Shown here piece by piece: positions 33,501 to 64,000 of a stretch of 64,000 bases of DNA (position 1 is its first letter; each line of letters begins with the position of its first letter). The notes under the pieces are model-generated. The model saw only the letters and a list, made by a program, of their open reading frames with translations, searched no databases and was not told where the DNA came from. Source of the DNA: a virus; the IMG/VR virus record IMGVR_UViG_3300046532_004322, positions 17,329-81,328 of that record; one strand, written 5' to 3'. Position numbers and translations under genes: made by a program.

Positions 33501-36500
33501 TCCTTATTGTCCGATATTTTTGCATCTGCAAATGTAGTATTATATCCGAACAAATCTCGCAGGCTTTTTCCTGGGGCTTGAACTATATCAAATGTTGCAC
33601 TATTCGTCGTGAAGGCAGTATTTTTTGAAATAGATTTTAATCCACTTTCAAAAACATGCCCACTTAACACTCCGATATGCTGATCAATATCTTTAGATAA
33701 GCTTGCGTGTGGCGAAGGAAGGGGTTGCTTTGGTCCAAGTTTTGGGCCGATTAATTTTTTAGCCGTTCTTCCCACCATAGCATTGAACACACGCCTGGAA
33801 TCCGTTTTTATTTTGTCTTGTACAGTCGGCCCATCTTGAGGTCTTTTTATTCCTTCTACGTTAAATTTTACTCTCCTTTCCCTACCTCCTTTTTTTCTTG
33901 GACCAGCCCAATTAACCTGCCTTCTGTAACCTTCCTGAGGAACAAGCATTGTTGCTAAATTTCTTGCATCTAAAGTTTCGAATGTAGAATTTCTAGCTTT
34001 CATCTTGCTCTTGTCCTTAGATTCTAGGTTTGTCAGCTCGGAAGCAGTCCTACGTTTTCCTTGAGAATCAAATTCTCCGTATACCGATGCTCTTCCTGCG
34101 CTCGTTTTACTTGCGCCTCCTCTATATTCGTTTAATAGTCTTAGCGACTGTTCGTCCAACATGGATTCGGTTACCTTAACCCCCCCATCCCGAGTTTTGC
34201 CATGCGAAATGAATGAGTTTTCGTCTTTAAATTGGCTCCAAATGTTACCATTTGCCTTTTTTCCAGAATCTATAAGCGGCCCACCAGCCTCCGTTCTATA
34301 CTTAACATTTAATCCTCCAGCAGCATTTATAACATCTCTAGTTAATTTCGTATCTTTAGCTGTTATTAAATCTATACCAGTCTTAAATAAACTTGTTGCT
34401 CCCAAATCTATTTTCTCAGACATTCCATTGCTATGATTTACTTTCGGATTTGATAAATATAAATTAGCGGCTTTTTTCAGAACTCCCAATGTATTTTGTT
34501 TTCTTTTCCCCTTTACTTCAAAATGTCTTCCTCCAGCCAATAAATCAAAATATTTATTTCCTTTCAATAGGTTGACTGATTCTTTTCCTTTCAACCCAAA
34601 TTCTCCCCTACTCCTCTTTAAATGTCTTCTAGCTTCGCTTTCCGCCCATAACCCCTTTATTCCACCCACTGCATTTTGAAACTGTCCCTCTTGCCAATGA
34701 ATATCTTTTGTACTTTTTGGATCAACCCATTTTTTAGTTAAAGAATCAATGGAAGTCAAGGCTCCTTTCCCGTTTCCAGAACTCAAAAGGGACCCGTATA
34801 TTCCATTGGTCATAAGCTTTTTTCTTACGCCAGTTATGTTTTTATACTTTGGATTTATTATATATTTTTCTTTCCCAGCATTTTTCCCTATTCCGATTTC
34901 TTTTTCAAATATAGAATTAACTCCTAAATTAGGAGGCCCGTCTCTCCACTTTGGATGCCCGTCTTTCCATCTTGATTTCGCATTTTTCCCTGCCAAAATA
35001 CGATGAGCTTTGCTTCCCATTTCTGCAGAAGTTTTTGAGAGCTTTGTAACTCTTAGATTTCCAGAAAATACATCACTACTATCAGAAAATTTTGAAATTG
35101 GACTGGCTCCCCCCAGTCTCCACCCTAACTCGGAAGATTTTGCAGACATCTTCATCAATCCTTTTGAGAAATTCGGAACAAATCCTTCGGAAGCAGTGAT
35201 TCTCCTTGCTCCCCTTGGCATTCCGTATCTTTTAATCATTGATCTATTAAATATTGCCGTTCCTCCAGACCCCCTAAAATTAGGAACCTTCCATTCTCCA
35301 GTATGAGCAACTACACTTCGCCTTTTCCCTCCACCCATCGCATGATTTCTCAACACTACAGGCCTATCTCCTCTTCTTGCACCACCTACATTATTTCTTA
35401 TTGATCTTTGTTCTCTATTTACCGAAGGGAGAAATCCTGACGCCATGCCCAAAGTTTTGCGACCTCGTCTTTTGTTCCAAGGCCTGCCCGCTGGCACAAA
35501 GCCCGCCTCGGAAGCTCCTACACCCCTTAGGGAAGTCCCAGCGGCTATTCTTTTGACCAAAGCTTCCTGCTTCATTCTTTCAACAGTCTCTTGCTTTATT
35601 AATTTTAATATAATTTTTTGTTGCTTCGCGGTATTCCCAGAAGCAGCCATTATCTTTTGGTAAACTCCGCTATTTGATGCAAGGATAGAACCAATGGACG
35701 CTTGAAGGCTTTTTTGTCTTTTGGATTCTGAATTCATCCCAATAAGGTCTGAAAAAGCTTCTCTTGCGAACTTTGCTACAAGTACAAATATCTTAAGAAA
35801 AGCCGCTGTAATAATTGCAAATCCTGGACCAGCCAAGAATTTACCAAATCCCTTTACGATATTTTTTGCAAAATCGCTACCCGTATTTTCATCCAAAGCT
35901 TTATTTAACCACTCAGCTAATTTTCCAACCACTTTTAAAATCGACTTAAAGCTATCACTTACCGCAAGCTCTCCAAGCCTTGCCGCCAATTCTTTAGCAC
36001 TTAAAGATGTTTGGGTAAATATAGCACTTAGGGTCTTATTAAGTTCCTCGTTTCTTTTTATAGCTTCGTCAGTTGTTCCGTTTGCCGTTTTTAATGCTTT
36101 GTCGTAAATTGAATAACCATCTCCCAAGTCTTGAATCAAAGCTTGAAGATTTTGAATTTGAAATACCCCAGCTATTTGTTCGGAAGTAAATGCTTTTTGT
36201 GAATCCGATAGCGTTTTGTATACTTTTGCATAATCTTTAAGTATTGCAATACCAGATCTAAAATTACCATTCAAGTCTTTTGTAGAGACTCCAATTTCTT
36301 CAAGAGCTTCCCTGACCCTACTTCTTTTTATCCTTGTAAATATACTCTTGAATCCATTTCCTATTACGGAACCACCTCTAGCGGTTCTTTGTTGAACTGC
36401 AGTTACAATTGAAGCGAGTTCATTAAATGAAACCCCAGAAGATTGAGCAACTGCACCAGCTCTAGAGATAGCTTCTGCCAAATCTTTTGACGAAACCGCA

Positions 36501-39434: not shown

Positions 39435-40700
39435 TTACGGGGTCAATGTTGGAGTTTCAGTAAACTGAGGAGTATTATCCTGCGATGTGAACAAGAATAT
39501 TCCATTATCCGAATCGTTAGCTCCGCCAACTTGAGCGGAGAAGGTAAGATCAACAGTCTTGTTATCTCCAATGGAAGCACTAAATGCTTCGGTATCGAGG
39601 ATAGCATTACGCATGACATAAGTCATGAGATTATTGCTTCCGCAACGATCCTTCATGATCAATGCGATATCACGCTTTTCTTCAGCTCCACAAATAAGAC
39701 CGTCAAGAGATCCTTCGTCAAAATCAGTCATCAATGCCGAAGCACTGAGCGTCATTGTAACTGGGAAATCAATCTTCCGAGCGAATGGGAAGTGATTCCC
39801 AAGTCTTGTCATCGGAGTTCTTCCAATTGGAACTTCCAAGGATACATTCTGAATGTGAACAGCAGTTTTTGAGCCCGTCCCGAAACCAGATCCAGGAAGG
39901 ACTGCTCCACCAACTTGTAAATCTCCAGCGCTTGTTGCATTACTGAAAAATCCAGTAGCATCAAAATCAATCGTAATGTCTCCAGGGCGGATAGCAAAGA
40001 TTTCACTACCACTTTCTGTATTTCCTGTAGTTCCTGTGTTTGAAATAACGCTAGAAAAATTAACTTTATTACTGAGCTTTGATCCACTCGTCGAACTAAC
40101 ATCAATTGCTGGATTATCCATATTGCCAGAAAGATCATTCTTAAAAAGCATATTCGAAGCTTCTACGGAAACACTTGCCGAAGCTAATTCTCCAACCGCA
40201 GCACTTATTGAATAACTCGTAAGAAATCCGTTACCAATTGCAATACATCCATGATTAGCAGTATTAACTCCAGTCGTATCATGCAAGTCGTCACCTTCTT
40301 TTGTCGTTACGACGTAAAAATTCAATTCATCTGCATTTGCTCCATGAACATTTTGAATATTTGTACTATCAAGAAGGCTCTTAGCTAATGGATCTGCAGT
40401 GGCAACTGGAAAAATCGTATCTGCATTTACATCAAGCCCAAGATTCTGCTCTTGGATACCTGTTGTGAGCAAGTACGAAAAATCAAGACTTACTGTGGGG
40501 GGCTCAGTTACTTCTCTCGAAAGAGCGGCAAGCTGACCAAACTCGTTAATATCAGTACGGGCTACTTCTAAATTGTAGCTCATGTCCTGAACGCGATTTA
40601 TTTCTTTAATGTTCGCACTTGTAATATTGCCCCCAGCATTGGGGTCGATCTTACTTGCGAACAAATTCTCACTCTGGTAAATAACTCTATCTCTTGGCAT
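39435..40700 (-). CDS. Major tail tube protein (candidate)
   Basis: A 421-residue beta-rich protein. It starts MPRDRVIYQSENLFASKID and has SLDFSYLLTTG, GFLTSYSISAAVGELASASVSVEASN and a late SASALMTDFDEGSL. Two repeated strand blocks are typical of tube proteins with an added domain, which would explain a length above the family norm. The C-terminus ends QFTETPTLTP. It is isolated by a strong terminator right after its stop, consistent with a very abundant protein, and sits between connector and chaperone genes. I see no sheath gene nearby. Confidence 0.7.
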   Translation of the reverse strand: MPRDRVIYQSENLFASKIDPNAGGNITSANIKEINRVQDMSYNLEVARTDINEFGQLAALSREVTEPPTVSLDFSYLLTTGIQEQNLGLDVNADTIFPVATADPLAKSLLDSTNIQNVHGANADELNFYVVTTKEGDDLHDTTGVNTANHGCIAIGNGFLTSYSISAAVGELASASVSVEASNMLFKNDLSGNMDNPAIDVSSTSGSKLSNKVNFSSVISNTGTTGNTESGSEIFAIRPGDITIDFDATGFFSNATSAGDLQVGGAVLPGSGFGTGSKTAVHIQNVSLEVPIGRTPMTRLGNHFPFARKIDFPVTMTLSASALMTDFDEGSLDGLICGAEEKRDIALIMKDRCGSNNLMTYVMRNAILDTEAFSASIGDNKTVDLTFSAQVGGANDSDNGIFLFTSQDNTPQFTETPTLTP

Positions 40701-40759
40701 AATTTTAAATGGTTTGTGTGTTATTACTAATTACAGTAAAAAGTTTAGAATGGGAACTT

Positions 40760-41632
40760 TTATCTTTTAAAATTTTCCCTAGGAGTTCTGGGCATTGAAA
40801 CGGTAAAGTCAATGAACCCTATTTTATAATCTTTTGATGATGTGATTCTTTCTCTGGCTCTGTCTGTAATTTTAGAACAATTAGCGCTTTCTATAAAACA
40901 ATTCTGAGAAGAACCAGAAGACAAATCGCTGTATTTATAAGGGTGAGATTTTATATGATTAAACTCTCCAAATGGAAAATCATTGAAGTTTATCATGGAA
41001 AAACAACTCCTTGCAGAGTCTCTAAATAATGAAAGCGCTCCATCCAATGTATAATTTGAGTCCGCTATTACCACCCCTCTTATATTACATATCGTATTAT
41101 CCATTCCTCCAAAAGCAAATGGTTCATTATTTGAATTAGCTAATGTCAGAAATACCGCAGGTACGGTATATATCTTATCTGTAAATCCTCCGTTTTGTTG
41201 TAAAAATGTTTGATTTAAAGGGGATATTGTAAAATCACTATTTAAAATTACATTCTCTTCAGTCTCATCAGTTATATATACATTAACCGTTTTATATGCA
41301 AAATCTCCAGTTATGGTCAATCCCGTTCCAGAATATACGGAAGTATCCAATAAGACCCTTCCATTATTATAATCTATGTATATATTATTTTTATCAGCAA
41401 CTTGAACGCCATCTATAGTAACGAAATCATTTACTGTATTTTTGTCAGAAGACCAAACGAATTGTCTATAGGGGCTATAGTAAGCCATATAATTAGACGG
41501 CAAATCTGGAGAGTCAACATGTTGAAAGGTATGAGTGATGGAAGGCATTACAGCTTCTCCGAAATAATTTAACCTATCGTCAAACCACAAGTAAAAACTT
41601 GATAAAAGCTCATGATCAAATCCTACTTTCAT
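40760..41632 (-). CDS. Neck or tail terminator candidate
   Basis: A 290-residue protein starting MKVGFDHELLSSFYLWFDDRLNYFGEAV. Many aromatic residues and strand segments (NNIYIDYNNGRVLLDTSV, LTITGDFAYKTVNVYITDE) are visible, and it ends KIGFIDFTVSMPRTPRENFKR. Its order, after the connector genes and before the tail tube, is the usual place for tail completion or terminator proteins. It overlaps the next upstream gene by 4 bp. Confidence 0.5.
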   Translation of the reverse strand: MKVGFDHELLSSFYLWFDDRLNYFGEAVMPSITHTFQHVDSPDLPSNYMAYYSPYRQFVWSSDKNTVNDFVTIDGVQVADKNNIYIDYNNGRVLLDTSVYSGTGLTITGDFAYKTVNVYITDETEENVILNSDFTISPLNQTFLQQNGGFTDKIYTVPAVFLTLANSNNEPFAFGGMDNTICNIRGVVIADSNYTLDGALSLFRDSARSCFSMINFNDFPFGEFNHIKSHPYKYSDLSSGSSQNCFIESANCSKITDRARERITSSKDYKIGFIDFTVSMPRTPRENFKR

Positions 41633-55220: not shown

Positions 55221-55409
55221 TTATTCAATTATTTTTTCAAGTTCTACCAAAGCGTCTCCCTCATAGAACTTTAGGTCATCATTGTATACAAATATCACGG
55301 CGAACATCTTATCGTGTCTATCGTACCCCGTTTCTTTATATATTTTAATTATTTTTCCGCATAAAAGCTTTCCGTCTTTCTCAAACTTTACGGATTGACC
55401 TTCTTCCAT
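55221..55409 (-). CDS. Small beta-type protein
   Basis: A 62-residue protein: QSVKFEKDGKLLCGKIIKIYKE, MFAVIFVYNDDLKFYEGDALVELEKI. The strand plan resembles a small KOW- or SH3-like barrel. It overlaps the end of the subtilisin gene by 22 bp. Function unknown. Confidence 0.6.
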   Translation of the reverse strand: MEEGQSVKFEKDGKLLCGKIIKIYKETGYDRHDKMFAVIFVYNDDLKFYEGDALVELEKIIE

Positions 55410-56686
55410 TTTTCCCTCATCTCATCATCAAATTTACCATCAAAATCTACATCCCCATTCTCATTAATATGTGGAACATAAATATTATTATCTTCCAGCT
55501 TGTTATTTAAATAGACTATAATCCCTAATAAAACTATTACCAAAATACTTATTCCTCCCCATAGATATAAATTTTTTCTTGACTCGTACTTTGGGGAATT
55601 TCTATCTGGATAAGGCTTCGGTATGTCTGGCTCAGGCTTAGGTCTAGGCTTTGGCTCTGGCTCTGGCTCTGGCTTTAATACGGGAGGTTTCTGCGGAGGT
55701 TTTGGCTTTTGGGGTATAGGTTTAGGATCGGGCTTCGGTTCAGGTTTCGGTTCAGGCTTCGGCTTCTGGATTTTTTCCTTTTCTAAAATTAAACTTTCTA
55801 CATCAATAGTTCCGTACCCCCATAAATTGTCTTTTCCAATTACGCCTCTATCTTTTGAATACTTTAATAAATGCTCTCTTATTCCTGCGACAGTTTTACA
55901 ATCATTTCTCATCCCTTCTTTTTGTTGCTTTTTGTGCTTTGAAAGCATTAGGCATATCACTCCAGTTATAAAAGGGCAGGCCATAGATGTCCCGCTTAAT
56001 TTCGCGTATCTATTATTTAGAAAAGTACTATATATTTGGACTCCTGGAGCAGCCCACTCGACTTGTTTTCCTCTTGATGAAAATTTTGCTATATCACCAG
56101 ATTGGGAAAATGCAGCCACGGCAATCGTTTCATCGTAAGCCGCAGGCCAGTTAACTCCGCCCTCACCAGTATTTCCCGCAGCACACACAACTGGGATATT
56201 CATTGAGCAAAGTTTTTTAATTCTAGATTCTATTTGTGAAGACGGTTTGTTTCCCCCTAAGCTCATAGACACGACGTCGGGTTTTATTTCTATCGCATAG
56301 TCTAAAGCTTGAGCTAAAGTCTGATAGCTACCACTGCCATTTTTATCCAAGGCTTTTACTGATATGCATTTAGTCTTAGGCGCAACGCCAACCATACCTT
56401 CTTCATTATTCTTCGCGCATATTATTCCCGCGCAATGAGTGTGGTGACCGTTTTGATCCATTATAGTTTCGCTCCGTATAAAGGTTTTTCCCTTTATTAC
56501 GTTATCACCTAAATCGGGGTGAGCGGGATGTCCAGTATCTATAATCATTGCAGTTATACCTTCGCCCTGCGTGACCTTCCATGTTTCGGGAACATTAAAT
56601 TGATTCAATCCCCAATCAATGACTTGAGCGAGAGCCCGTATTCTGGTATCTATTTTAAACTCAGGTAGATTTGTTGCTTCTCTCAT
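55388..56686 (-). CDS. Membrane-anchored subtilisin-like serine protease
   Basis: A 432-residue protein with a complete S8 catalytic set: Asp50 in AMIIDTGHPAHPDL, His81 in NGHHTHCAGI, the oxyanion Asn in CAAGNTGE and Ser in SGTSMACPFITG near residue 230. After the catalytic domain come about 70 residues of Pro/Lys/Glu repeats (KPEPKPEPKPDPKP type), then a single membrane helix LYLWGGISILVIVLLGIIVYL and a short acidic tail. I see no N-terminal signal peptide. It might cut host envelope or phage proteins at the membrane. It overlaps PhoH by 26 bp and lies upstream of the packaging operon. Confidence 0.88.
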   Translation of the reverse strand: MREATNLPEFKIDTRIRALAQVIDWGLNQFNVPETWKVTQGEGITAMIIDTGHPAHPDLGDNVIKGKTFIRSETIMDQNGHHTHCAGIICAKNNEEGMVGVAPKTKCISVKALDKNGSGSYQTLAQALDYAIEIKPDVVSMSLGGNKPSSQIESRIKKLCSMNIPVVCAAGNTGEGGVNWPAAYDETIAVAAFSQSGDIAKFSSRGKQVEWAAPGVQIYSTFLNNRYAKLSGTSMACPFITGVICLMLSKHKKQQKEGMRNDCKTVAGIREHLLKYSKDRGVIGKDNLWGYGTIDVESLILEKEKIQKPKPEPKPEPKPDPKPIPQKPKPPQKPPVLKPEPEPEPKPRPKPEPDIPKPYPDRNSPKYESRKNLYLWGGISILVIVLLGIIVYLNNKLEDNNIYVPHINENGDVDFDGKFDDEMREKWKKVNP

Positions 56687-57407
56687 TTAATTCTATTTTT
56701 TTAATAATATACTTTAATATTACACTCCTTTTGATATCTTTAAAGTCAAAAGTGAAATTATGTATTCCTTGCTTCTTACTAGCGTCATCATTAAATACCC
56801 CTTTTATCTTACTAAATCCGCTCCTTCCGTTGATGTCGCTCTGCATGGGATCTCCGCAAATAAACATTTTACTATTCTCTCCAATTCGGGTAATTAACGT
56901 AATTAATTCCTTCTCGCTGAAATTTTGACACTCGTCGGCAACTACTATCTGATTATTAATACTCGCTCCTCGTAGATAATTTATGGGCATCGCAGATACG
57001 ACTTTTTTATTAATCATGGCGCGCGCATCCGAGGCTTGTAATAATTCGAATAATTTATCCTCGAGAGGCATCATGAATGGACAAAACTTCTCGTCAACAC
57101 TTCCTGGTAGTGCTCCCATGCCTCTATCGGCGCTTTCTATTATGGTTCGCACATAACTAATGTTATATTCATTGTCTTGATTAAATAATTGGAGAGCTCC
57201 ATATATTGCCATGAAGGTCTTGCTCGTCCCTGCTGGACCACTCAGAAAAATAATCTTAGTGTCCTTGTCGAACATTATCTTCAGTAACTCTTTTTGCTTG
57301 TCGGAAAATTCTATCTTTTTAAGCTTAATTTTCGTTTTTTTAAACGAGCTTATTATATTTTCTATTTCCTCGGAATCCTCTATGTCGGGTTTTTTGCGCC
57401 TTGGCAT
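56661..57407 (-). CDS. phoH: PhoH-like P-loop ATPase
   Basis: A 248-residue ATPase. Walker A is GPAGTSKT at residues 57-64, Walker B is VVADECQN, and FICGDPMQSDI follows, the order of the PhoH family common in marine and other large phages. A role in RNA or phosphate metabolism has been suggested for the family; its actual phage role is unclear. It is the first gene of the long leftward block, divergent from the cassette array. The short Lys/Arg-rich N-terminus (MPRRKKPDIED) is usual. Confidence 0.9.
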   Translation of the reverse strand: MPRRKKPDIEDSEEIENIISSFKKTKIKLKKIEFSDKQKELLKIMFDKDTKIIFLSGPAGTSKTFMAIYGALQLFNQDNEYNISYVRTIIESADRGMGALPGSVDEKFCPFMMPLEDKLFELLQASDARAMINKKVVSAMPINYLRGASINNQIVVADECQNFSEKELITLITRIGENSKMFICGDPMQSDINGRSGFSKIKGVFNDDASKKQGIHNFTFDFKDIKRSVILKYIIKKIELNERSNKST

Positions 57408-57512
57408 ATTATTATATGCTATATGTTACAGCTATTTTTTGCAAAGTGCCGATTTTTTTTCAAAAAACTATATATTATAATAAAATAATGCTTCAGACTT
57501 TGAGTAAAACCA

Positions 57513-57568
57513 CCCCCCCTCCGCCAGCAAAGCAAGGCAACTCCAAAAAATTCAAAAAACGGGGGGGG
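57513..57568. other. C7 ... G8 flanked segment at the array border
   Basis: A run of seven C (57513-57519) and a run of eight G (57561-57568) flank 41 bp in the divergent space between PhoH and the array. They could pair as a large hairpin or mark an assembly or recombination border. No gene seen. Confidence 0.4.
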
Positions 57569-57574
57569 ATCGTG

Positions 57575-57588
57575 CAACTTTTTAGTTG
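57575..57588. other. Small hairpin CAACTTTTTAGTTG
   Basis: A five-bp stem with a T4 loop. The reverse-complement form CAACTAAAAAGTTG occurs at 58507-58520 and 59467-59480 region of the array. Confidence 0.5.
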
Positions 57589-57608
57589 AAATGAAAGTCG
57601 TTATCGGT

Positions 57609-57637
57609 TTGCGTTTGGGTCGAAGTTGTCGTACCTT
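57609..57637 (+). promoter_or_regulatory. Array promoter P1
   Basis: TTGCGT at 57609-57614, 17 bp, TACCTT at 57632-57637, as in the other array promoters. This is the one case where the ATG (57681) is not at the expected start: about 43 nt lie between. Confidence 0.6.
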
Positions 57638-57680
57638 GTTAATAGTTAATCATTCGTACCTATTCAAAAAAATCAAAATT

Positions 57681-57905
57681 ATGTCAAAAAAATTCGAAAA
57701 AGGAAAAATCAAATCCCTGAAGGTTGGAAGTCTTTACCATTCAACGACTAACAATAAGTGCGTTCGTTTGGTCGAGTTACATATCCAAGCAAGAATTTGC
57801 ATAATAAAGCATCATACTCAAGATCACTTGTTTCAATCGGAAGTCTTTTTCCAAGACTTGGAAGTTGCTACAGGTGAACAGGTTAAGAAATATTTTCAAA
57901 GGTAA
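57681..57905 (+). CDS. Small array protein, paralogue of 59616-59834
   Basis: A 74-residue protein from ATG 57681. A longer frame reaches back to 57591 through the promoter and is rejected. The core SLYHSTTNNKCVRLVELHIQARICIIKHHTQDHLF is about two-thirds identical to the gene at 59616, with the same KHH-x-QDHLFQ-EVFF segment and the ending YFQR. The repeated His and Cys residues could bind metal, but no family is known to me. It is followed 26 bp later by the next gene with an AAAGGA site. Confidence 0.75.
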   Translation: MSKKFEKGKIKSLKVGSLYHSTTNNKCVRLVELHIQARICIIKHHTQDHLFQSEVFFQDLEVATGEQVKKYFQR

Positions 57906-57931
57906 AACCAAAAAACAAAAGGAAAATTATA

Positions 57932-58174
57932 ATGGAAGACGAAAAAACGGAAGAAGAAAAGTCAACTTTTTACAGGCTTGACTTAACTCGGGATCAATGG
58001 GATAACTTAAAAGCTTCATTGTATCGTGCACAAACTATCGCAAAGGACAGGATGGAAAAATTGATCGAGGAAAAAGATCCTGCAAAGGAAACTATTCTTG
58101 ATCTTTTCGAAGATATGCAAAAAGCCCGTCAAGCTGTCGATCTTGCTTGGAATTATAACTACATTCTAAAGTGA
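57932..58174 (+). CDS. Small array protein, helical
   Basis: An 80-residue protein with a good AAAGGAAAA site. It has TFYRLDLTRDQWDNLKASLYRAQ and a long amphipathic helix DLFEDMQKARQAVDLAWNYNYIL. Function unknown. Its stop codon overlaps the GTG of a 16-codon ORF (GTGA). Confidence 0.7.
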   Translation: MEDEKTEEEKSTFYRLDLTRDQWDNLKASLYRAQTIAKDRMEKLIEEKDPAKETILDLFEDMQKARQAVDLAWNYNYILK

Positions 58175-58221
58175 TTTTCGTAATAATCTTTGCTGTTTTC
58201 GTTGCTTGGATAAATCAATAA
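58171..58221 (+). CDS. Micro-ORF 1, hydrophobic peptide of 16 residues
   Basis: GTG start overlapping the preceding stop. The product is MIFVIIFAVFVAWINQ, long enough for one short membrane span. It shares the [LF]V[AF][WY]xN ending with the micro-ORFs at 60191 and 62514, which argues for a real family. A ribosome-like site and a three-codon ORF (MSF) follow at 58222-58250, perhaps a relic of a deleted gene. Confidence 0.5.
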   Translation: MIFVIIFAVFVAWINQ

Positions 58222-58261
58222 AAGAAAGGGAAAACACAATGTCCTTTTAAACAAAAAAGTT

Positions 58262-58293
58262 GCCCGATCTTCGCAAGAGGATCGGGCTTTTTT
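58262..58293 (+). terminator. Array terminator T1
   Basis: Stem GCCCGATC-TTC / GAG-GATCGGGC closing a GCAA (GNRA) tetraloop at 58262-58287, then six T. Relative to T2-T5 the stem has paired changes (G-C for T-A), so the structure is kept by selection. Confidence 0.9.
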
Positions 58294-58541
58294 ATGCCCG
58301 AATCAGTCACAAGAGAATTGTGCAATAGATTGGCAGGATCGTGCTTGGAATAGTGCAACGATGTAACGCGATCAGTCAACTGTCATAAGTCACTGATGCC
58401 CAAGGGTTTAGGGACGGCGGCAGCCGCCCACGCTAAACCTTTGGGGGTCAACGACTTACGACACGCCATGTACGAGAGAATTGTGCAATACAAAAGTGTA
58501 ATCAGGCAACTAAAAAGTTGCACAATACGATTGCCCTGTGA
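58291..58541 (+). repeat. 251-bp array repeat, copy 1
   Basis: Nearly identical to 59261-59511 apart from the inverted 21-bp palindrome core and a handful of point changes. It contains palindrome R1 and the CAACTAAAAAGTTG hairpin. With 58542-58632, this fills the 411-bp non-coding gap; no further ORF is seen. Confidence 0.9.
58386..58458. repeat. 73-bp palindrome R1
   Basis: TAAGTC...GACTTA ends; 36-nt arms around a central A with most positions paired. Positions 7/67 and 8/66 are mismatched here and 8/66 in most other copies. The 21-bp centre (GGAC ... CACG) is the exact reverse complement of the one in R2. Confidence 0.92.
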
Positions 58542-58595
58542 TAGGATAGTGTAAGAAAACAGGCGAATGTTCTTGGCATATTTGGTCAAATATAA

Positions 58596-58625
58596 TTCGC
58601 TATTCGGCGGGGTTTGCCGTACCTT
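58596..58625 (+). promoter_or_regulatory. Array promoter P2, leaderless
   Basis: TTCGCT at 58596-58601, 18 bp, TACCTT at 58620-58625. ATG 58633 follows 7 nt later. Confidence 0.75.
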
Positions 58626-58632
58626 GTATTAT

Positions 58633-58878
58633 ATGAAATCGCTCTCTTCTCTCTTTTTGCATTCTCACGCCCGTAAAGGGTCTTTAGCTGAACAGCTTTT
58701 TTGGATGGCTCGGATTGATTTTCTTTTGGAAAATCCGAATTCTCCAATGATTCAAACAAGGCAAGATCTTTCGCCTGTTTGCGTTCTGCCTGAAATCGAA
58801 ACTTTGAAAAAGTCATGGCTTGAACAAACCAAACAAGGTGAGGTTAATCGCCTTAAGACTTCGCCTTTAGTACGATAA
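58633..58878 (+). CDS. Small array protein
   Basis: An 81-residue basic protein from ATG 58633; the in-frame extension to 58567 runs through the promoter and is rejected. It starts MKSLSSLFLHSHARKGSLAEQLFWMARI and has two helical segments. No family recognised. It shares its cassette with the acidic protein that follows 21 bp later. Confidence 0.7.
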   Translation: MKSLSSLFLHSHARKGSLAEQLFWMARIDFLLENPNSPMIQTRQDLSPVCVLPEIETLKKSWLEQTKQGEVNRLKTSPLVR

Positions 58879-58899
58879 CCAAATAAGGAGAAAAACAAT

Positions 58900-59163
58900 A
58901 TGAGCTACGAAATCGAAAAAAGAATAGACGAATTGCAAAAATTAACGCAAGACAGATGCGATCTCGAAAACGAAAAACCCGAAAACGAAGAGGAGGAATC
59001 CGAACGGCAGAATTCTCTTGATTGCAACGCCTACGAATCGGAAGAAGTGACTAAGGAAATCAAAAGCCTTTGCGCTTCCGCAGGTGAGCAAATCGAAAAT
59101 GCTGAAAATCTTTTAGGAATAACTGAAGGAAAAAGTCAATTTCCAATGTGGACAATCAAATGA
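58900..59163 (+). CDS. Small acidic array protein
   Basis: An 87-residue protein with a strong AAGGAG site. It is mostly Glu/Asp/Asn-rich helices (EIEKRIDELQKLTQDRCDLEN, EEVTKEIKSLCASAGEQI) with four Cys. The low pI may suggest a DNA-mimic or inhibitor, but that is only a guess. Its stop overlaps the next ATG (ATGA). Confidence 0.65.
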   Translation: MSYEIEKRIDELQKLTQDRCDLENEKPENEEEESERQNSLDCNAYESEEVTKEIKSLCASAGEQIENAENLLGITEGKSQFPMWTIK

Positions 59164-59225
59164 TTATCATCGAATTAAGTTGCATAATCGCACCGCCCGC
59201 CTTAATCGTTCTTTACCTACTCTGA
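59160..59225 (+). CDS. Micro-ORF 2, hydrophobic peptide of 21 residues
   Basis: ATG overlaps the preceding stop as ATGA. It starts MIIIELSCIIAPPALIVL and ends YLL, all hydrophobic except one Glu and a Pro pair. It directly precedes terminator T2 (about 7 nt). Confidence 0.5.
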   Translation: MIIIELSCIIAPPALIVLYLL

Positions 59226-59231
59226 AAAGTT

Positions 59232-59263
59232 GCCCTATCCTCGCAAGGGGATAGGGCTTCTTT
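59232..59263 (+). terminator. Array terminator T2
   Basis: Stem GCCCTATCC-TC/GG-GGATAGGGC with a GCAA loop at 59232-59257, then a T-rich run. Confidence 0.9.
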
Positions 59264-59511
59264 ATGCCCGAATCAGTCACAAGAGAATTGTGCAATAGAT
59301 TGGCAGGATCGTGCTTGGAATAGTGCAACGATGTAACGCGATCAGTCAACTGTCATAAGTCACTGATGCCCAAGGGTTTAGCGTGGGCGGCTGCCGCCGT
59401 CCCTAAACCTTTGGGGGTCAACGACTTACAACACGCCATGTACGAGAGAATTGTGCAATGCAAAAGTGTAATCAGGCAACTAAAAAGTTGCACAATACGA
59501 TTGCCCTGTGA
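59261..59511 (+). repeat. 251-bp array repeat, copy 2
   Basis: Second copy of 58291-58541. With 59512-59615 it fills the 390-bp non-coding stretch between cassettes. Contents: palindrome R2, CAACTAAAAAGTTG hairpin, then the P3 promoter region. Confidence 0.9.
59356..59428. repeat. 73-bp palindrome R2
   Basis: Same flanks as R1, but the centre reads CGTG ... GTCC, the exact reverse complement of R1's. Confidence 0.92.
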
Positions 59512-59578
59512 GAGCATTAGTCAACTTCCTAGTAATCGAATCGTGCAAGAAAATAGGTGAATATTTGGAGCGATTTAA

Positions 59579-59608
59579 TTCGCTATTTACCCCTTTTGCT
59601 CGTATCTT
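59579..59608 (+). promoter_or_regulatory. Array promoter P3, leaderless
   Basis: TTCGCT at 59579-59584, 18 bp, TATCTT at 59603-59608. ATG 59616 is 7 nt later. Confidence 0.75.
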
Positions 59609-59615
59609 GTATTAT

Positions 59616-59834
59616 ATGAAATTCGAATACGGAAATATCGACTCGCTGAAAGAGGGTACTTTGTACCATAGCAAGCAAAACAATAAAGTCGTGCGACTCG
59701 TAGAGTTGCACAAACAAGCAAGAATATGCATAATCAAGCACCATGCACAAGATCACTTGTTTCAACCCGAAGTCTTTTTTAAGGACTTAACCAAGGCAAC
59801 GAGCGATCAAGTCGAGGCTTACTTTCAAAGGTAA
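59616..59834 (+). CDS. Small array protein, paralogue of 57681-57905
   Basis: A 72-residue protein, MKFEYGNIDSLKEGTLYHSK then VVRLVELHKQARICIIKHHAQDHLFQPEVFFKDL, ending YFQR. It is clearly duplicated from, or the source of, the first array gene. The two copies sit in cassettes with different second genes, which shows that cassette contents are shuffled independently. Confidence 0.78.
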   Translation: MKFEYGNIDSLKEGTLYHSKQNNKVVRLVELHKQARICIIKHHAQDHLFQPEVFFKDLTKATSDQVEAYFQR

Positions 59835-59861
59835 GCTTTCAATCAAAACAAAAGGAAAATC

Positions 59862-60188
59862 ATGCGACAAGTAACGGAACATATCAAAAACGCCTTTTGT
59901 CAAGGCTTATCCTTGACAGTTGGAAACACTAAAACAGATGGTACAAGCGTCTTTCTTCACGGCAACGAGATTGTCAGGAGAGATCCAAGCGGGTTAGTCT
60001 TTGCTACGCTTGCGGGTTGGAACACTCGCACGACAATGGAAAGAGTCAACGGCATTACAGGAATGAATTTTCATCAAGTCGGGTTTGTTGCTTGTCTTGA
60101 TGACGAACCAATTTGCGAAGACGATTGGTTTGTGCAAACCCATGACGGAACGGCAACCGCCTTGCCTCCTCCTCCTTTGTCAATATAA
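59862..60188 (+). CDS. Small array protein
   Basis: A 108-residue protein with an AAAGGAAAA site: LSLTVGNTKTDGTSVFLHGNEIVRRDPSGLVFATLAGWNTRTTMERVNGI. This short beta-type layout with an acidic end (DDEPICEDDWFVQTHDG) and a Pro run is seen in small phage early proteins of unknown function. No family assigned. Confidence 0.7.
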   Translation: MRQVTEHIKNAFCQGLSLTVGNTKTDGTSVFLHGNEIVRRDPSGLVFATLAGWNTRTTMERVNGITGMNFHQVGFVACLDDEPICEDDWFVQTHDGTATALPPPPLSI

Positions 60189-60190
60189 TC

Positions 60191-60244
60191 ATGCTTTTAG
60201 CAATTGTACTTTACTCTTGTTTAGTTGCCTATTCGAATTGGTAA
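60191..60244 (+). CDS. Micro-ORF 3, hydrophobic peptide of 17 residues
   Basis: ATG two nt after the preceding stop; product MLLAIVLYSCLVAYSNW. The LVAYSNW end resembles FVAWINQ in micro-ORF 1 and LVFYVNQ in micro-ORF 4. Followed 17 nt later by terminator T3. Confidence 0.5.
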   Translation: MLLAIVLYSCLVAYSNW

Positions 60245-60261
60245 AAAAACCTTAGAAAGTT

Positions 60262-60292
60262 GCCCTATCCTCGCAAGGGGATAGGGCTTTTC
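60262..60292 (+). terminator. Array terminator T3
   Basis: Same 26-nt GCCCTATCC/GGATAGGGC stem with GCAA loop, then TTTTC. Confidence 0.9.
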
Positions 60293-60316
60293 TATGCCCC
60301 AATTAGTCACCTTTCA

Positions 60317-60389
60317 TAAGTTACTGATACCCAAGGGTTTAGCCTTGGCGGCTGCCGCCGTCCCTAAACCTTTGGGGAGCAACGACTTA
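60317..60389. repeat. 73-bp palindrome R3
   Basis: TAAGTT...GACTTA. The centre has the R2-type right part (GTCC) and a CCTT left part. Confidence 0.9.
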
Positions 60390-60431
60390 CAAGAAGTGAC
60401 CGATACCACTAAAAAGTTGCATCTTGGTGCT

Positions 60432-60447
60432 GATCCGCAAGCGGATC
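60432..60447. other. Conserved hairpin GATCCGCAAGCGGATC
   Basis: A short perfect stem upstream of promoter P4. Shorter versions occur at the matching places before P6 and P7 (CCGCAAGCGG). Confidence 0.55.
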
Positions 60448-60473
60448 GTGCAATAAGATAGTTGAATATTTAG

Positions 60474-60503
60474 TTCGCTATTTGGAGGGGCTTGTCGTAT
60501 CTT
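60474..60503 (+). promoter_or_regulatory. Array promoter P4, leaderless
   Basis: TTCGCT at 60474-60479, 18 bp, TATCTT at 60498-60503. ATG 60510 is 6 nt later. Confidence 0.75.
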
Positions 60504-60509
60504 GTACTT

Positions 60510-60734
60510 ATGATAAATGATGATTCCCTCGCCCGCACCGCTCACGCTCTCGGCATGACTGATGTCGAATTTACCGCACGGGAGGCGATTCTCGCACTTC
60601 CTCCCGTCTCGGATATTCCCCCGCCCCCGCCTATTCCCAAAGGCGTTCGTCCTCTTCCTCAAATTGAATCCACCCCCAAGGAACTCAGCGATTGGGTTAC
60701 TCAGGATCTTCTAGACGGGGCGTTCGACGACTAA
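60510..60734 (+). CDS. Small array protein with Pro-rich middle
   Basis: A 74-residue protein from ATG 60510: MINDDSLARTAHALGMTDVEFTAREAILALP, then a PPPPPIPKGVRPLP tract and an acidic end. The N-terminal helix pair could be a small protein-interaction domain. This cassette has no micro-ORF; terminator T4 begins 7 nt after the stop. Confidence 0.7.
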   Translation: MINDDSLARTAHALGMTDVEFTAREAILALPPVSDIPPPPPIPKGVRPLPQIESTPKELSDWVTQDLLDGAFDD

Positions 60735-60740
60735 AAAGTT

Positions 60741-60771
60741 GCCCTATCCTCGTAAGGGGATAGGGCTTTTC
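60741..60771 (+). terminator. Array terminator T4
   Basis: Same stem with a GTAA loop (still GNRA), then TTTTC. Confidence 0.9.
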
Positions 60772-60795
60772 TATGCCCCAATTAGTCACCTGTCA

Positions 60796-60868
60796 TAAGT
60801 CACTGATGCCCAAGAGTTTAGCGTGGGCGGCTGCCGCCAAAGGTAAACCTTTGGGGTGCAACGACTTA
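60796..60868. repeat. 73-bp palindrome R4
   Basis: TAAGTC...GACTTA with centre CGTG...AAAG. The remaining part of the 314-bp gap (60869-60980) is AT-rich with no ORF. Confidence 0.9.
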
Positions 60869-60980
60869 CGAAACATGACTGATACTACCATAATAATGAA
60901 CAATCCTTTAATATAATAAGTCAACTTTATAATATAATATATACATTAACCTATTTACCTATTTTATTGTATTATTCTAT

Positions 60981-61009
60981 TTGATAGAAAAGTATTATTT
61001 TGTTAAAAT
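60981..61009 (+). promoter_or_regulatory. Extra sigma-70-like promoter
   Basis: TTGATA, 17 bp, TAAAAT; just upstream of the array-type promoter P5, so this cassette may have tandem promoters. Confidence 0.45.
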
Positions 61010-61012
61010 AAA

Positions 61013-61042
61013 TTTGCTATTTATCGAAAAGTGGCTTACTCT
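61013..61042 (+). promoter_or_regulatory. Array promoter P5, leaderless
   Basis: TTTGCT at 61013-61018, 18 bp, TACTCT at 61037-61042. ATG 61049 is 6 nt later. Confidence 0.7.
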
Positions 61043-61048
61043 ATATAT

Positions 61049-61351
61049 ATGAAAGAGAAAAACACCGATTCACAAAGCTTTTCAATATTCGATCTGATCG
61101 AAAAGGGTCTTCATACTAATGAAGTTGCATATGAAGGAGCAAAAGTTTTAATGGATTTGCATGTGCAGTTAAATGCAATTAAAAATGTAGTAAAAAGCAA
61201 GAAAGACAAAAAGGGAGTTTATGCCAACGATCTTTCTGATGACCCTAATTCTATCTTGTGCGTAACCATAATTGATTGGATGGAACAAGAATTGAAAAAA
61301 ATCGAAAAGCATTACAATAAAACGCTTAATGTAAACCATTACGAAAGATAA
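61049..61351 (+). CDS. Small array protein
   Basis: A 100-residue protein from ATG 61049: SFSIFDLIEKGLHTNEVAYEGAKVLMDLHVQLNAIKNVVKSKKDKKG then a helical end (DWMEQELKKIEKHYNKTL). It looks all-helical. Function unknown. The next gene starts 4 bp after its stop, with only a weak AAGATAAG site. Confidence 0.7.
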   Translation: MKEKNTDSQSFSIFDLIEKGLHTNEVAYEGAKVLMDLHVQLNAIKNVVKSKKDKKGVYANDLSDDPNSILCVTIIDWMEQELKKIEKHYNKTLNVNHYER

Positions 61352-61355
61352 GAAA

Positions 61356-61592
61356 ATGAAAATCCAAAAATCCGAAAAAGACGAAAACACTTTAATCATA
61401 GCGGACGAGATCCTCGTCCGCTTGTGCGATGAAACCAATAAAATTCTTTCGGTAGAATTTCCTAAGAATTACTTGGAAAATCTAGAGGATGAAATCAAAT
61501 GGATGGTAATTGAATATCTTGACGCAAGATCCGAATGCTTGGCTTTCGGTAACAATGTTTGGACTGAAGCGAATCCTAAATGGGAATTCTAG
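61356..61592 (+). CDS. Small array protein
   Basis: A 78-residue protein: KDENTLIIADEILVRLCDETNKILSVEFPKNYLENLEDEIKWMVIEYLDAR, ending NPKWEF. Mixed strand and helix. The stop is followed at once by terminator T5, without a micro-ORF. Confidence 0.7.
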   Translation: MKIQKSEKDENTLIIADEILVRLCDETNKILSVEFPKNYLENLEDEIKWMVIEYLDARSECLAFGNNVWTEANPKWEF

Positions 61593-61598
61593 AAAGTT

Positions 61599-61629
61599 GC
61601 CCTATCCTCGCAAGGGGATAGGGCTTCTT
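61599..61629 (+). terminator. Array terminator T5
   Basis: Same 26-nt stem-loop with GCAA, then TTCTTT. The following sequence (61630-61722) resembles the left part of the 251-bp repeat. Confidence 0.9.
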
Positions 61630-61722
61630 TATGCCCGAATCGGTCACAATAGAATTGTGCAATAGATTGACGGGATCGTGTTCGTGATCGTACAATAGGG
61701 TAGTGCGATCAGTCAACCGTCA

Positions 61723-61795
61723 TAAGTTGCTGATAGCCAAAGGTTTAGCGTGAGCGGCTGCCGCCGAGGGTAAACCCTTGGGGAGCAACGACTTA
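61723..61795. repeat. 73-bp palindrome R5
   Basis: TAAGTTG...GACTTA. Its left arm reads CCAAAGGTTTA and its right arm TAAACCCTTGG, the opposite of the other copies (CCAAGGGTTTA / TAAACCTTTGG). The rest of the 327-bp gap, 61796-61883, has the conserved CCGCAAGCGG hairpin and no ORF. Confidence 0.9.
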
Positions 61796-61883
61796 CGAAA
61801 CATGATCAATACCACAGGAAAATTGCATCTCGGACGCTAATGCCCCGCAAGCGGATCGTGCAATAAAATAGTTGAATATTTAG

Positions 61884-61913
61884 TTCGCTATTTGGAGGGA
61901 CTTGTCGTACCTT
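61884..61913 (+). promoter_or_regulatory. Array promoter P6, leaderless
   Basis: TTCGCT at 61884-61889, 18 bp, TACCTT at 61908-61913. ATG 61920 is 6 nt later. Confidence 0.75.
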
Positions 61914-61919
61914 GTACAT

Positions 61920-62258
61920 ATGAAATTAACTATAGAGTTTGACGAGGTTACCGAATCTGAATTTTCCGCAAATATAGAATTTGCAGACGGGAGATCGTTT
62001 TGGGTAGAAGGTGAAAACGACACCGATGAAATGGAAAATCTTTATGGCGATCAAGTAGAGTCGATTTCTACTTTGGCTAGATTCGACTCGCTTAGCGATG
62101 TAAAGCCCTATGATCAAGACGGGGAAAGTTGCAACTCAATTTCTCTTTCTGAAATTGAAACAATTAAAAAGGCTCTAGATTCAGGACTTCGGGATTATGA
62201 AATTTCAGCACAAAAGTACAAGGTTGACTATTCTCCTAGATACTACGATTTAATATGA
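61920..62258 (+). CDS. Small array protein
   Basis: A 112-residue acidic protein from ATG 61920: MKLTIEFDEVTESEFSANIEFADGRSFWVEGENDTDEM, then a helix ETIKKALDSGLRDYEISAQ. Beta-then-helix layout; no family recognised. Stop and next start overlap as ATGA. Confidence 0.7.
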   Translation: MKLTIEFDEVTESEFSANIEFADGRSFWVEGENDTDEMENLYGDQVESISTLARFDSLSDVKPYDQDGESCNSISLSEIETIKKALDSGLRDYEISAQKYKVDYSPRYYDLI

Positions 62259-62377
62259 GGGTCAAAGTCAGAATCCCAATAAGTAAACAAGCTTGGAGCA
62301 AATCCATGCCACATAAGAGGAATAATAAAGTCCTTCCTCGCAAACAAAAACACAAGGAAAAAATATGTACATCCTAG
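62255..62377 (+). CDS. Very basic 40-residue peptide
   Basis: ATG overlaps the preceding stop. Thirteen of 40 residues are Lys or Arg and only one is acidic: MRVKVRIPISKQAWSKSMPH, then a KRNNKVLPRKQKHKEK run. It could bind nucleic acid. It is small, and support comes only from coupling and composition. Confidence 0.4.
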   Translation: MRVKVRIPISKQAWSKSMPHKRNNKVLPRKQKHKEKICTS

Positions 62378-62514
62378 AATCAATCCCGTTTCTTAATAAA
62401 ACAGGTTGGATTGCCGAGAGCATTCCAATGTTCAAGAGAGAAGCCGAGGCTTTGCTAAAGTCAAGACGAGCTTTCGAGGATCGCAAGTTTCGCTATAAAC
62501 TCACAAAAGTATAA
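62365..62514 (+). CDS. 49-residue array peptide
   Basis: ATG 62365 has an AAGGAAAAAAT site. The product is MYILESIPFLNKTGWIAESI followed by a basic helix (MFKREAEALLKSRRAFEDRKFRY). Its stop overlaps the next ATG (TAATG). Confidence 0.5.
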   Translation: MYILESIPFLNKTGWIAESIPMFKREAEALLKSRRAFEDRKFRYKLTKV

Positions 62515-62573
62515 TGGAAATTTTAACTATTCTCTTATTCTCAGCCTTAGTCTTTTATGTAAACCAATTGTGA
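62514..62573 (+). CDS. Micro-ORF 4, hydrophobic peptide of 19 residues
   Basis: Overlaps the preceding stop by 1 nt; product MEILTILLFSALVFYVNQL. Same ending type as micro-ORFs 1 and 3. There is no terminator stem here: palindrome R6 begins 17 nt later. Confidence 0.5.
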   Translation: MEILTILLFSALVFYVNQL

Positions 62574-62589
62574 AATAAGTCAACTTACA

Positions 62590-62662
62590 TAAGTTACTGA
62601 TAGCTAAGGGTTTAGCGCGGGCGGCAGCCGCCAAAGGTAAACCTTTGGTGGTTAAGGACTTA
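62590..62662. repeat. 73-bp palindrome R6
   Basis: TAAGTTA...GACTTA. Centre CGCGG...AAAG with A instead of T in the middle. It lies between convergent genes, and its end overlaps the stop of the leftward gene at 62660. Confidence 0.9.
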
Positions 62663-62968
62663 CAGAAGAGTAGCCTTCACAACCTTGGTGCATTGCCAAA
62701 CCCAATTGCCACCCTTGCCATTTAAGCCCTTGTAGTAACGCAAGCCCGCCTGCCAAGCATTCTTTCCGTACTGACGCACGACAAAGGAATGGTTCATAGT
62801 GCGGTTCTGTACAGTTAAGGCATATAGATTGCCAGTAGTATGAGCTTGCCAAAGCCTTTGCCTACCTCTCCATACAGGATCGAAAGGAATATTGCTCTTG
62901 CAATCAGCAGAGTCATGCAATCGCTTTTGTTGAGCAAACCAATCTAATTGTGCTTGTGTTAGGTTCAT
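62660..62968 (-). CDS. Small leftward array protein
   Basis: A 102-residue basic protein: MNLTQAQLDWFAQQKRLHDSADCKSN, FDPVWRGRQRLWQAHTTGNLYALTVQNRTMNHSFVVRQYGKNAWQAGLRYYKGLNG, ending VVKATLL. It looks like a small alpha/beta domain with many aromatic residues. Function unknown. It lies 4 bp after the 68-aa gene of the same orientation. Confidence 0.7.
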   Translation of the reverse strand: MNLTQAQLDWFAQQKRLHDSADCKSNIPFDPVWRGRQRLWQAHTTGNLYALTVQNRTMNHSFVVRQYGKNAWQAGLRYYKGLNGKGGNWVWQCTKVVKATLL

Positions 62969-62972
62969 CGTC

Positions 62973-63179
62973 TTAGAATTTTAGTGATTTTAGTGAGGTG
63001 TTCTTTTTGAGCCATCTCCTTAATGGATGGAATGCTTTTGCGGAGAAATGTGCGAGATACTGCTCGCCATTCTTTGCGAGTATCATTTGACCACTCGCAG
63101 TCGCCCGAATCTCTGCAATTTCGGGACATTTTTTCAGCTGTTTTAATACTTTTCGAGTTCCGCTTTCTGAATGTTTCAT
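62973..63179 (-). CDS. Small basic leftward array protein
   Basis: A 68-residue protein: HSESGTRKVLKQLKKCPEIAEIRATASGQMILAKNG, EQYLAHFSAKAFHPLRRWLKKNTSLK. Another frame overlaps here (62965-63204), but this one starts exactly 6 nt after an array-type promoter, so I prefer it. No family recognised. Confidence 0.65.
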   Translation of the reverse strand: MKHSESGTRKVLKQLKKCPEIAEIRATASGQMILAKNGEQYLAHFSAKAFHPLRRWLKKNTSLKSLKF

Positions 63180-63185
63180 ACTTAT

Positions 63186-63214
63186 AAAGTACCACGCTAA
63201 ACAAGGGAACGCAA
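63186..63214 (-). promoter_or_regulatory. Array promoter for the leftward pair, leaderless
   Basis: Read leftward: TTGCGT (63214-63209), 17 bp, TACTTT (63191-63186), 6 nt, ATG 63179. Confidence 0.7.
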
Positions 63215-63240
63215 GAAAAATCTTAGTGAAAATGCTTTCG

Positions 63241-63313
63241 TAAAGTGTTGATGACCAAGGCTTTAGCCTGGGCGGGTGCCGCCGAGTGTAAACCTTTGGG
63301 GAACAACGACTTA
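63241..63313. repeat. 73-bp palindrome R7
   Basis: TAAAGTG...GACTTA between divergent promoters. The outer arm TGTTG/CAACG pairs better than in other copies, while positions 4-5 do not. Confidence 0.88.
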
Positions 63314-63410
63314 CGAGAAGTGACTAATACCACAGAATAGTTGCATCTCAGAGCTAATGTCCCGCAAGCGGATAAGTCAATAAAATAGTTGAATATTTGG
63401 AGTTATTTTA

Positions 63411-63440
63411 TTTGCTCTTTACCTGTTTTTGTTCTATATT
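63411..63440 (+). promoter_or_regulatory. Array promoter P7, leaderless
   Basis: TTTGCT at 63411-63416, 18 bp, TATATT at 63435-63440. ATG 63447 is 6 nt later. Confidence 0.72.
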
Positions 63441-63446
63441 CTATTT

Positions 63447-63857
63447 ATGAAAGTTAATTATTCCTTATCCCTTGAGAGTATTGAAGAAATGAATGGTGGT
63501 ATGTTCGATGCAAATTGTATTGTTACCATCTCCGCAAGCAATGATGACGCACCCGAATCAATTACGGACTTGATGATCTACGCAAGCGTGGATTTCCTTG
63601 CTGATTGTGACGAGGGAGGTTTTTCCCTTCGTGCTGATGTTCGAGGGTTTCAAGTTTACGATTCCAACGAAAAGGAAATTTGCCCTGCCGATCACTTCGA
63701 CTCAATCGAAGATCGAGACATTGAAAATTTTCTCGAAAGTGACGGAAATTGGAACATCAACGAGGCTTGGAATTGGATGGACGATAGACTCCAAGGAATA
63801 GCTGAAAGCTCAAAGCTCGAGTCTCAACTCTCAAATCTCGAAAGTCGCCAAAAATAA
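63447..63857 (+). CDS. Small acidic array protein
   Basis: A 136-residue protein from ATG 63447: MKVNYSLSLESIEEMNGGMFDANCIVTISASND, a middle FSLRADVRGFQVYDSNEKEI and a helical acidic end. It looks like a small beta-rich domain with a C-terminal helix. No family recognised. Its stop lies within the start of palindrome R8, with no separate terminator. Confidence 0.7.
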   Translation: MKVNYSLSLESIEEMNGGMFDANCIVTISASNDDAPESITDLMIYASVDFLADCDEGGFSLRADVRGFQVYDSNEKEICPADHFDSIEDRDIENFLESDGNWNINEAWNWMDDRLQGIAESSKLESQLSNLESRQK

Positions 63858-63927
63858 AGTACTGATAGCCAAGGGTTTAGCCTAGGCGGCTGCCGCCGAG
63901 CGTAAACCTTTGGGGAACAACGACTTA
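63855..63927. repeat. 73-bp palindrome R8
   Basis: TAAAGTA...GACTTA, centre CCTAG...GAGC. Its first bases are the stop codon of the preceding gene. Confidence 0.9.
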
Positions 63928-63952
63928 CGCAACGCTATTCTGCCATGATGCA

Positions 63953-63985
63953 CAAAAAAAGCCCGCCTCGTGGCGAGCTAATTCT
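63953..63985. terminator. Bidirectional terminator at the right edge
   Basis: A7, stem GCCCGCC/GGCGAGC with a TCGT loop and one mismatch, then a T-containing run. It could end the array in either direction. Confidence 0.6.
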
Positions 63986-64000
63986 TTTAAAAAATTATTT

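Follow-up and report, generated by a model that had tools for sequence, protein, structure and literature searches.

The right end of a 64,000-nucleotide stretch of viral DNA (positions 17329-81328 of the 81,328-bp IMG/VR virus record IMGVR_UViG_3300046532_004322, hereafter the window) carries an array of small-gene cassettes separated by copies of one DNA element, a pair of inverted dyads with a GC-rich core between them. Between related phages, the cassettes of this locus are gained, lost, reordered, and flipped, the elements are the borders of the units, and the flanking DNA remains collinear. We consider it probable that the array is made of self-contained units in a hyperplastic locus, shuffled by general recombination in the manner of the promoter-early stem-loop cassettes (PeSLs) that Arbiol et al. 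(2010) and Comeau et al. (2014) reportedly described in T4-type phages, and that the dyads bind a phage protein.

The array starts directly past a minus-strand phoH-like gene (56661-57407), which is its fixed left border in the lineage of the window and served as the anchor for finding the same locus in related phages. In relatives with PhoH proteins that are 69-79% identical, as well as in a more distant group (52-54%), 7 to 11 elements lie directly beside phoH, the closer relatives having 7 to 9 of them. The original prediction had named as its decisive test whether the genes between the same elements differ from one related phage to another, and they do, with moves, gains, losses, and flips. 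For instance, in contigs L216 and L222, which are 86-87% identical, cassette 5 of the former corresponds to cassette 8 of the latter (87% identity) and the neighbours are collinear; the moved segment starts about 37 bp ahead of its first element and extends 65 bp into its last one. A comparison of L216 with L221 shows four cassettes in permuted order. Gene families derived by simple open reading frame (ORF) calling tell the same story, as 53 of them are common to at least two of 15 arrays with changing slots, partners, and strands, and families F1 and F2 are found on the plus strand in some phages and on the minus strand in others. On the other side of phoH, 10 kb were compared in 15 pairs of phages and proved collinear in 13; in each of the two exceptions, a single segment at the far end was out of order.

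Some of these exchanges are recent. L220 and L221 share 98.1% identity over 18.9 kb and differ in their cassettes; L221 is identical to L216 over 975 bp and then to L220, from a point 74 bp ahead of its first element. L221 is thus a recent recombinant whose joint coincides with the end of the upstream gene and falls next to the element, not within it. Other recent segments begin 0 to 10 bp from an element (L050/L061, L061/L162, L075/L162, and L220/L222).

The eight elements of the window are imperfect palindromes of 73 bp each, located between 58386 and 63927, and they delimit seven rightward cassettes and one leftward cassette (62660-63179), as had been claimed. A right-arm pattern matched the window eight times and 100 shuffled versions not once, and a two-site model gave eight matches in the whole record, all within the array, against none in two shuffles. 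Both searches recovered E1 (58386-58458), E2 (59356-59428), E3 (60317-60389), E4 (60796-60868), E5 (61723-61795), E6 (62590-62662), E7 (63241-63313), and E8 (63855-63927). In E1, two inverted dyad sites (TAAGTC..CCAAGGGTTTAG and CTAAACCTTTGG..AACGACTTA) flank the GC core. An alignment of 220 pairs generalizes this architecture to two dyads of 25 bp, TAAGTCSTTG...CAASGACTTA, which flank a GC-rich core and are extended outward by TTGACG/CGTCAA. The length of the element is nearly uniform within each genome and depends on the lineage (67, 71-73, 75-76, or 78 bp, with a few copies of 83-85 bp), and in one lineage (G056) the sites are near-perfect palindromes of the form TAACTCGTTGA-N3-TCAACGAGTTA (n = 31, all at 97-108 kb).

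The long palindrome had been counted among the shared modules, and this held only in part. As single strands, the window elements do fold, with z-scores that vary among copies from strong to weak (E1, -7.6; E2, -6.0; E3, -5.3; E5, -3.1; E7, -2.8; E6, -2.3), but two elements of distant lineages folded no better than their shuffles, and what distant phages conserve is the pair of 25-bp dyads and not the hairpin. Among 213 non-redundant 78-bp elements, no positive covariation between the two halves was detected, some arm positions showed negative values, and the GC core was the only part with covariation. Given the loss of folding in distant lineages and the lack of arm covariation, the conserved entity is the pair of double-stranded dyads. 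An idea of helical spacing between the dyads (42, 53, or 62 bp) was dropped, as the window lineage uses 48 bp.

Irregular arrangements of the element were also seen. In G056, regular pairs give way to short tandem series of single dyads at 97612-97756 and 98559-98822, spaced by about 60 bp, with several packed into 250 bp. In G008 (124308-124485) and G015 (27712-27889), the array opens with two elements that are separated by only about 25 bp and adjoin the conserved flank; one of the two is degenerate, and this close pair is possibly a border or an entry site.

In keeping with the original prediction, each cassette of the window has a promoter of its own beside an element. Six rightward cassettes carry a promoter resembling TTYGCT/TTTGCT-N18-TAYCTT, and since its -10 box lies only 6-7 nt ahead of the ATG, translation should start without a leader. 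These plus-strand promoters are TTCGCT-N18-TACCTT in cassette 1 (58596-58635, 7 nt to the ATG at 58633, assigned from the sequence and the consensus of the other cassettes), TTCGCT-N18-TATCTT in cassettes 2 (59579-59618, 7 nt) and 3 (60474-60512, 6 nt), TTTGCT-N18-TACTCT in cassette 4 (61013-61051, 6 nt), TTCGCT-N18-TACCTT in cassette 5 (61884-61922, 6 nt), and TTTGCT-N18-TATATT in cassette 7 (63411-63449, 6 nt). The claim of leaderless starts therefore applies to these six, but not to cassette 0 (57.6 kb), which has the same promoter with a leader; the leftward cassette 6 possesses its own promoter. In 27 of 31 cases in the lineage of the window, the TTTTCTTG -35 box begins at a distance of 21-23 bp from the element, nearly always on just one of its sides, and it is present at 30 of 73 elements compared with 1.8% of control positions; where it sits at 21-23 bp, the distance from element to ATG is 61-62 bp. 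In the lineages with 78-bp elements, a promoter of the TTGACA type follows the element in 36% of cases versus 8% of controls, at a median of 41 bp.

Terminators with GNRA loops, which had been described as usual, are present in five of the eight window cassettes. They consist of an 11-bp stem, a GCAA or GUAA loop, and a T run (z-scores of -4.9 to -6.1), and all are on the plus strand: GCAA tetraloops in cassettes 0 (58262-58293, z -6.1), 1 (59232-59263, z -5.6), 2 (60262-60293, z -5.0), and 4 (61599-61630, z -5.6), and a GUAA tetraloop in cassette 3 (60741-60772, z -4.9). Where neighbouring window cassettes share an orientation, the terminator of one unit precedes the element and the promoter of the next follows it, so the element should escape transcription.

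The right-arm pattern was found in 11 IMG/VR stretches and the more general pattern TAAACCCTTG-N6-AAGGACTTA in at least 120. Just 15 stretches in 84,980 cellular genomes were matched, mostly by chance or on viral or viral-looking contigs, and the element was absent from 50,697 isolate and deposited phage records. In IMG/VR, element pairs repeat about every kilobase, with 72 loci holding at least two and 45 holding at least four. Each large genome examined has a single array locus; for example, G009 carries 16 elements within 20 kb of its 233 kb and none elsewhere. The terminases of the window lineage and of the G009-type lineages are only 22-24% identical, yet the element is the same. The window and its array-bearing relatives encode a terminase with a T4-type N-domain, a UvsX-like recombinase, homologues of rIIA and rIIB, and other replication genes. 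We nevertheless avoid calling them close T4 relatives, since the terminase of array phages matches those of isolates at only about 25%; the arrays belong to a large, uncultivated group of tailed phages.

We searched array-bearing records for enzymes that could move cassettes by acting on the element, and the controls of these searches were positive. Phage_integrase (PF00589) was absent from 62 records, several of them longer than 200 kb, serine resolvases (PF00239) from 34, and telomere resolvases of the TelK/ResT type (PF16684) from 25. The serine recombinase search was made owing to the 53-bp spacing, which is similar to that of sites I and II of Tn3 res, and both the res-site reading and the idea of a telomere-resolvase palindrome were given up as neither enzyme was found. 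The attC end boxes RYYYAAC/GTTRRRY flank 1 of 464 elements, against 0.3 expected by shuffling, and none of the eight in the window. Crossover positions are spread evenly over the element, with fractions of 0.38/0.34/0.28 and 0.38/0.33/0.29 in its thirds, according to a maximum-likelihood fit to 95 junction pairs with limited resolution; the set of 71-73-bp elements was too small to judge. A three-way junction table had pointed to crossovers in the GC core, but this was abandoned once an expectation-maximization fit with a larger background gave the even spread.

Taken together, the negative recombinase searches, the missing attC boxes, the even distribution of crossovers, and the conservation of a UvsX-like protein favour general recombination as the process behind the shuffling. 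Each unit begins with an element, an AT-rich stretch, and a strong promoter; the promoter is followed by small genes (a single one or a few) or by tRNA genes, and a terminator closes some of the units. In the proposed mechanism, recombination between the repeated element-promoter modules would be catalysed by the UvsX/RecA-like protein of the phage with no need for an integrase, and occasional joins at short homologies beside these modules may contribute. With its own promoter and closed-off ends, any cassette should function in any slot, and the near-symmetry of the element would allow it to work in either orientation. That the dyads are so unusually well conserved in distant phages suggests that they are bound by a dimeric protein of the phage, for which the pair would be kept as a double-stranded site; this putative protein could control the adjacent promoter or act as a nuclease that provokes recombination. 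One tentative candidate is a conserved 137-aa stand-alone protein of the homing/HNH-endonuclease type encoded next to the replicative helicase (112520-112933 on the minus strand of G050, with homologues in G008, G009, G011, G015, and G056). Several points weigh against the combination of general recombination and a dyad-binding protein. General recombination would not require the dyads to be so strictly conserved between very distant phages, which obliges us to assume a sequence-specific protein that the analysis did not find; in addition, the element is nearly absent from cellular genomes and isolate phages, its distance to the promoter is fixed within one lineage only, and many of the array-bearing contigs are fragments.

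The alternatives account for parts of these data. It is unlikely, to our minds, that the locus is in essence a regulatory array in which the dyad pair is an operator or insulator coordinating adjacent promoters and the turnover is ordinary mosaicism in a non-essential region. This would agree with the placement of the element directly upstream of promoters in distant lineages, with the fixed spacing in the window lineage, with a dyad symmetry that is typical of dimeric repressors or activators, and with an element left untranscribed between terminator and promoter in co-oriented cassettes; however, the distance to the promoter is not constant, either among lineages (31-50 bp) or between cassettes of opposite direction, one operator would be enough, and the coincidence of unit borders with elements is not explained by regulation itself. 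A regulatory role of the dyads is in any case compatible with shuffling by general recombination, and the two are not opposed. We find it quite unlikely that the element serves instead as attachment site for a site-specific recombinase of phage or host that escaped recognition and that excises and inserts cassettes as in integrons, and attach similarly little weight to a virus-specific version in which an unrecognised phage-encoded enzyme moves small-gene cassettes by means of the paired dyads across distant large phages. The confinement of a small-gene array to one locus, the uniform element length within a genome, the mobility of the cassettes, and the resemblance of each of the two sites, with two inverted arms about 7 bp apart, to the core site of a tyrosine recombinase are what such a system would lead one to expect. 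The negative enzyme searches (in 62, 34, and 25 records) speak against it, as do the near-chance frequency of attC boxes, halves that do not covary, the variable crossover point, with the recent L221 junction 74 bp outside the element, and the presence of cassettes in both orientations. Membership in the integron/attC family itself was rejected after the attC box, covariation, integrase, and crossover tests had all failed. Finally, it is scarcely credible that these are ordinary repeats inherited vertically with no exchange of cassettes: pairs such as L220/L221 are mostly collinear, but relatives show permuted, flipped, and replaced cassettes, and the mosaic in L221 is sequence-exact.

The genes of the window array are small. 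Cassette 0 consists of the first copy of a duplicated gene (family F0, 57681-57905, with homologues in eight related arrays) and a second gene encoding 80 aa (57932-58174). Cassette 1 has genes for 81 aa (58633-58878) and 87 aa (58900-59163) and a predicted micro-ORF of 21 codons (59160-59225) ahead of the terminator. Cassette 2 contains the second F0 copy (59616-59834), F11 (59862-60188), and a predicted micro-ORF (60191-60244); as had been noticed, the two F0 copies are diverged (75% amino acid identity) and have different partners. Cassette 3 holds one gene for 74 aa (60510-60734), and cassette 4 holds two, for 100 aa (61049-61351) and 78 aa (61356-61592). Cassette 5 comprises F12 (61920-62258), with homologues in other slots of four related arrays, and a small ORF of 49 aa (62365-62514) followed by a micro-ORF (62514-62573). 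All of these are on the plus strand, as is the single gene of cassette 7 (136 aa, 63447-63857). The minus-strand cassette 6 encodes a 102-aa protein (62660-62968) and F1 (62973-63179), a family present, on one strand or the other, in every related array that extends far enough. The predicted micro-ORFs thus precede a terminator or an element in cassettes 1, 2, and 5, in agreement with the earlier description. The record stops within the array, and a sister contig (L211) carries two further leftward array genes past that end.

The small proteins had been called unrecognisable, and the scan of ten of them bears this out: none of the ten could be assigned a known function, nor could the products given above by length (74 to 136 aa), and the F11 protein matched PHROG_554, a family of unknown function (E-value 4e-9), with Kyano_Gp96 below the cut-off. 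PADLOC gave no match better than 0.002 for array proteins. The structural model of F0 is an SH3-like barrel with no significant match in the PDB, and that of F1 is an alpha-beta3-alpha fold with no informative match. In the lineages with 78-bp elements, cassettes also hold GP88/DUF7227 and DUF7249 proteins. By eye, tRNA-like sequences, apparently of the Tyr and Arg types, were seen in cassettes directly before an element in G015 (30.7 and 33.4 kb) and G009 (25.4 kb).

Subtilisin-like proteases lie at the array border in two distant lineages (39620-41287 on the minus strand of G009, and 55388-56686 of the window). The G009 protein has the N-terminal motif LEQLETRALLS, which we take to be of planctomycete style, a possible hint at the host that does not settle it. 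Elsewhere in the window, three structural proteins (673, 532, and 385 aa) had no PHROG match, and a minus-strand ORF of 4,177 codons (24575-37108) probably encodes a giant structural protein.

How large lytic phages swap the small genes with which they take over their hosts is poorly understood, and a locus with recognisable borders may mark a site of such exchange. A short DNA pattern also offers a simple route to harvest accessory phage genes from environmental contigs, and the genes found in these arrays are likely candidates for takeover or counter-defence functions. Moreover, the element is defined well enough to be used as bait for its putative binding protein.

Several known systems invite comparison. 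Mycobacteriophage operators and stoperators are short single sites spread over the whole genome; like the elements described here, they are present in many copies in intergenic gaps, and they bind a protein, as the dyads probably do, but here the sites are paired 25-bp dyads restricted to one locus. Integrons and the clusters of attC sites lacking integrases (CALINs) found in phages (PMC9892861) likewise consist of ordered small-gene cassettes split by imperfect palindromes, in phages with no integrase nearby. In contrast to them, the present arrays have no attC R boxes, no strand-folding constraint, and no fixed crossover point, and they combine both orientations with a promoter for each cassette; the lack of an integrase is not a difference, as none is required for a CALIN. 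The hyperplastic or ORFanage regions of T4-like cyanophages (PMC4503421, PMC3037559) resemble these arrays in that orphan genes of large phages turn over locally, but a dense array with a shared element is not described there, and the authors of PMC4503421 judged PeSL-mediated acquisition to be unlikely for S-PM2. Our literature search found no description of the element. The PeSL work of Arbiol et al. and Comeau et al. is cited in PMC4503421, on which the comparison with PeSLs draws in part.

The plan had been likened to that of PeSLs, and both the promoter-bearing module and the shuffling at module borders are indeed present. As in PeSLs, repeated intergenic modules with promoters are the places where non-essential genes shuffle between related large phages, and their promoters are strong and early-type by their sequence. 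Stem-loop terminators were seen in five of the eight window cassettes. PeSLs are also defined by early expression and by excised mini-circles. What sets the present arrays apart is a conserved pair of dyad sites of 67-85 bp, the confinement to a single dense array in each genome, the predicted leaderless starts of the window lineage, absence from the isolate phages searched, and an element whose sequence is kept between phages with terminases that are 22-24% identical. These arrays suggest that modular shuffling of the PeSL type extends beyond the classical relatives of T4, and that a single DNA element can remain conserved even as the phages that carry it and the promoters beside it diverge.

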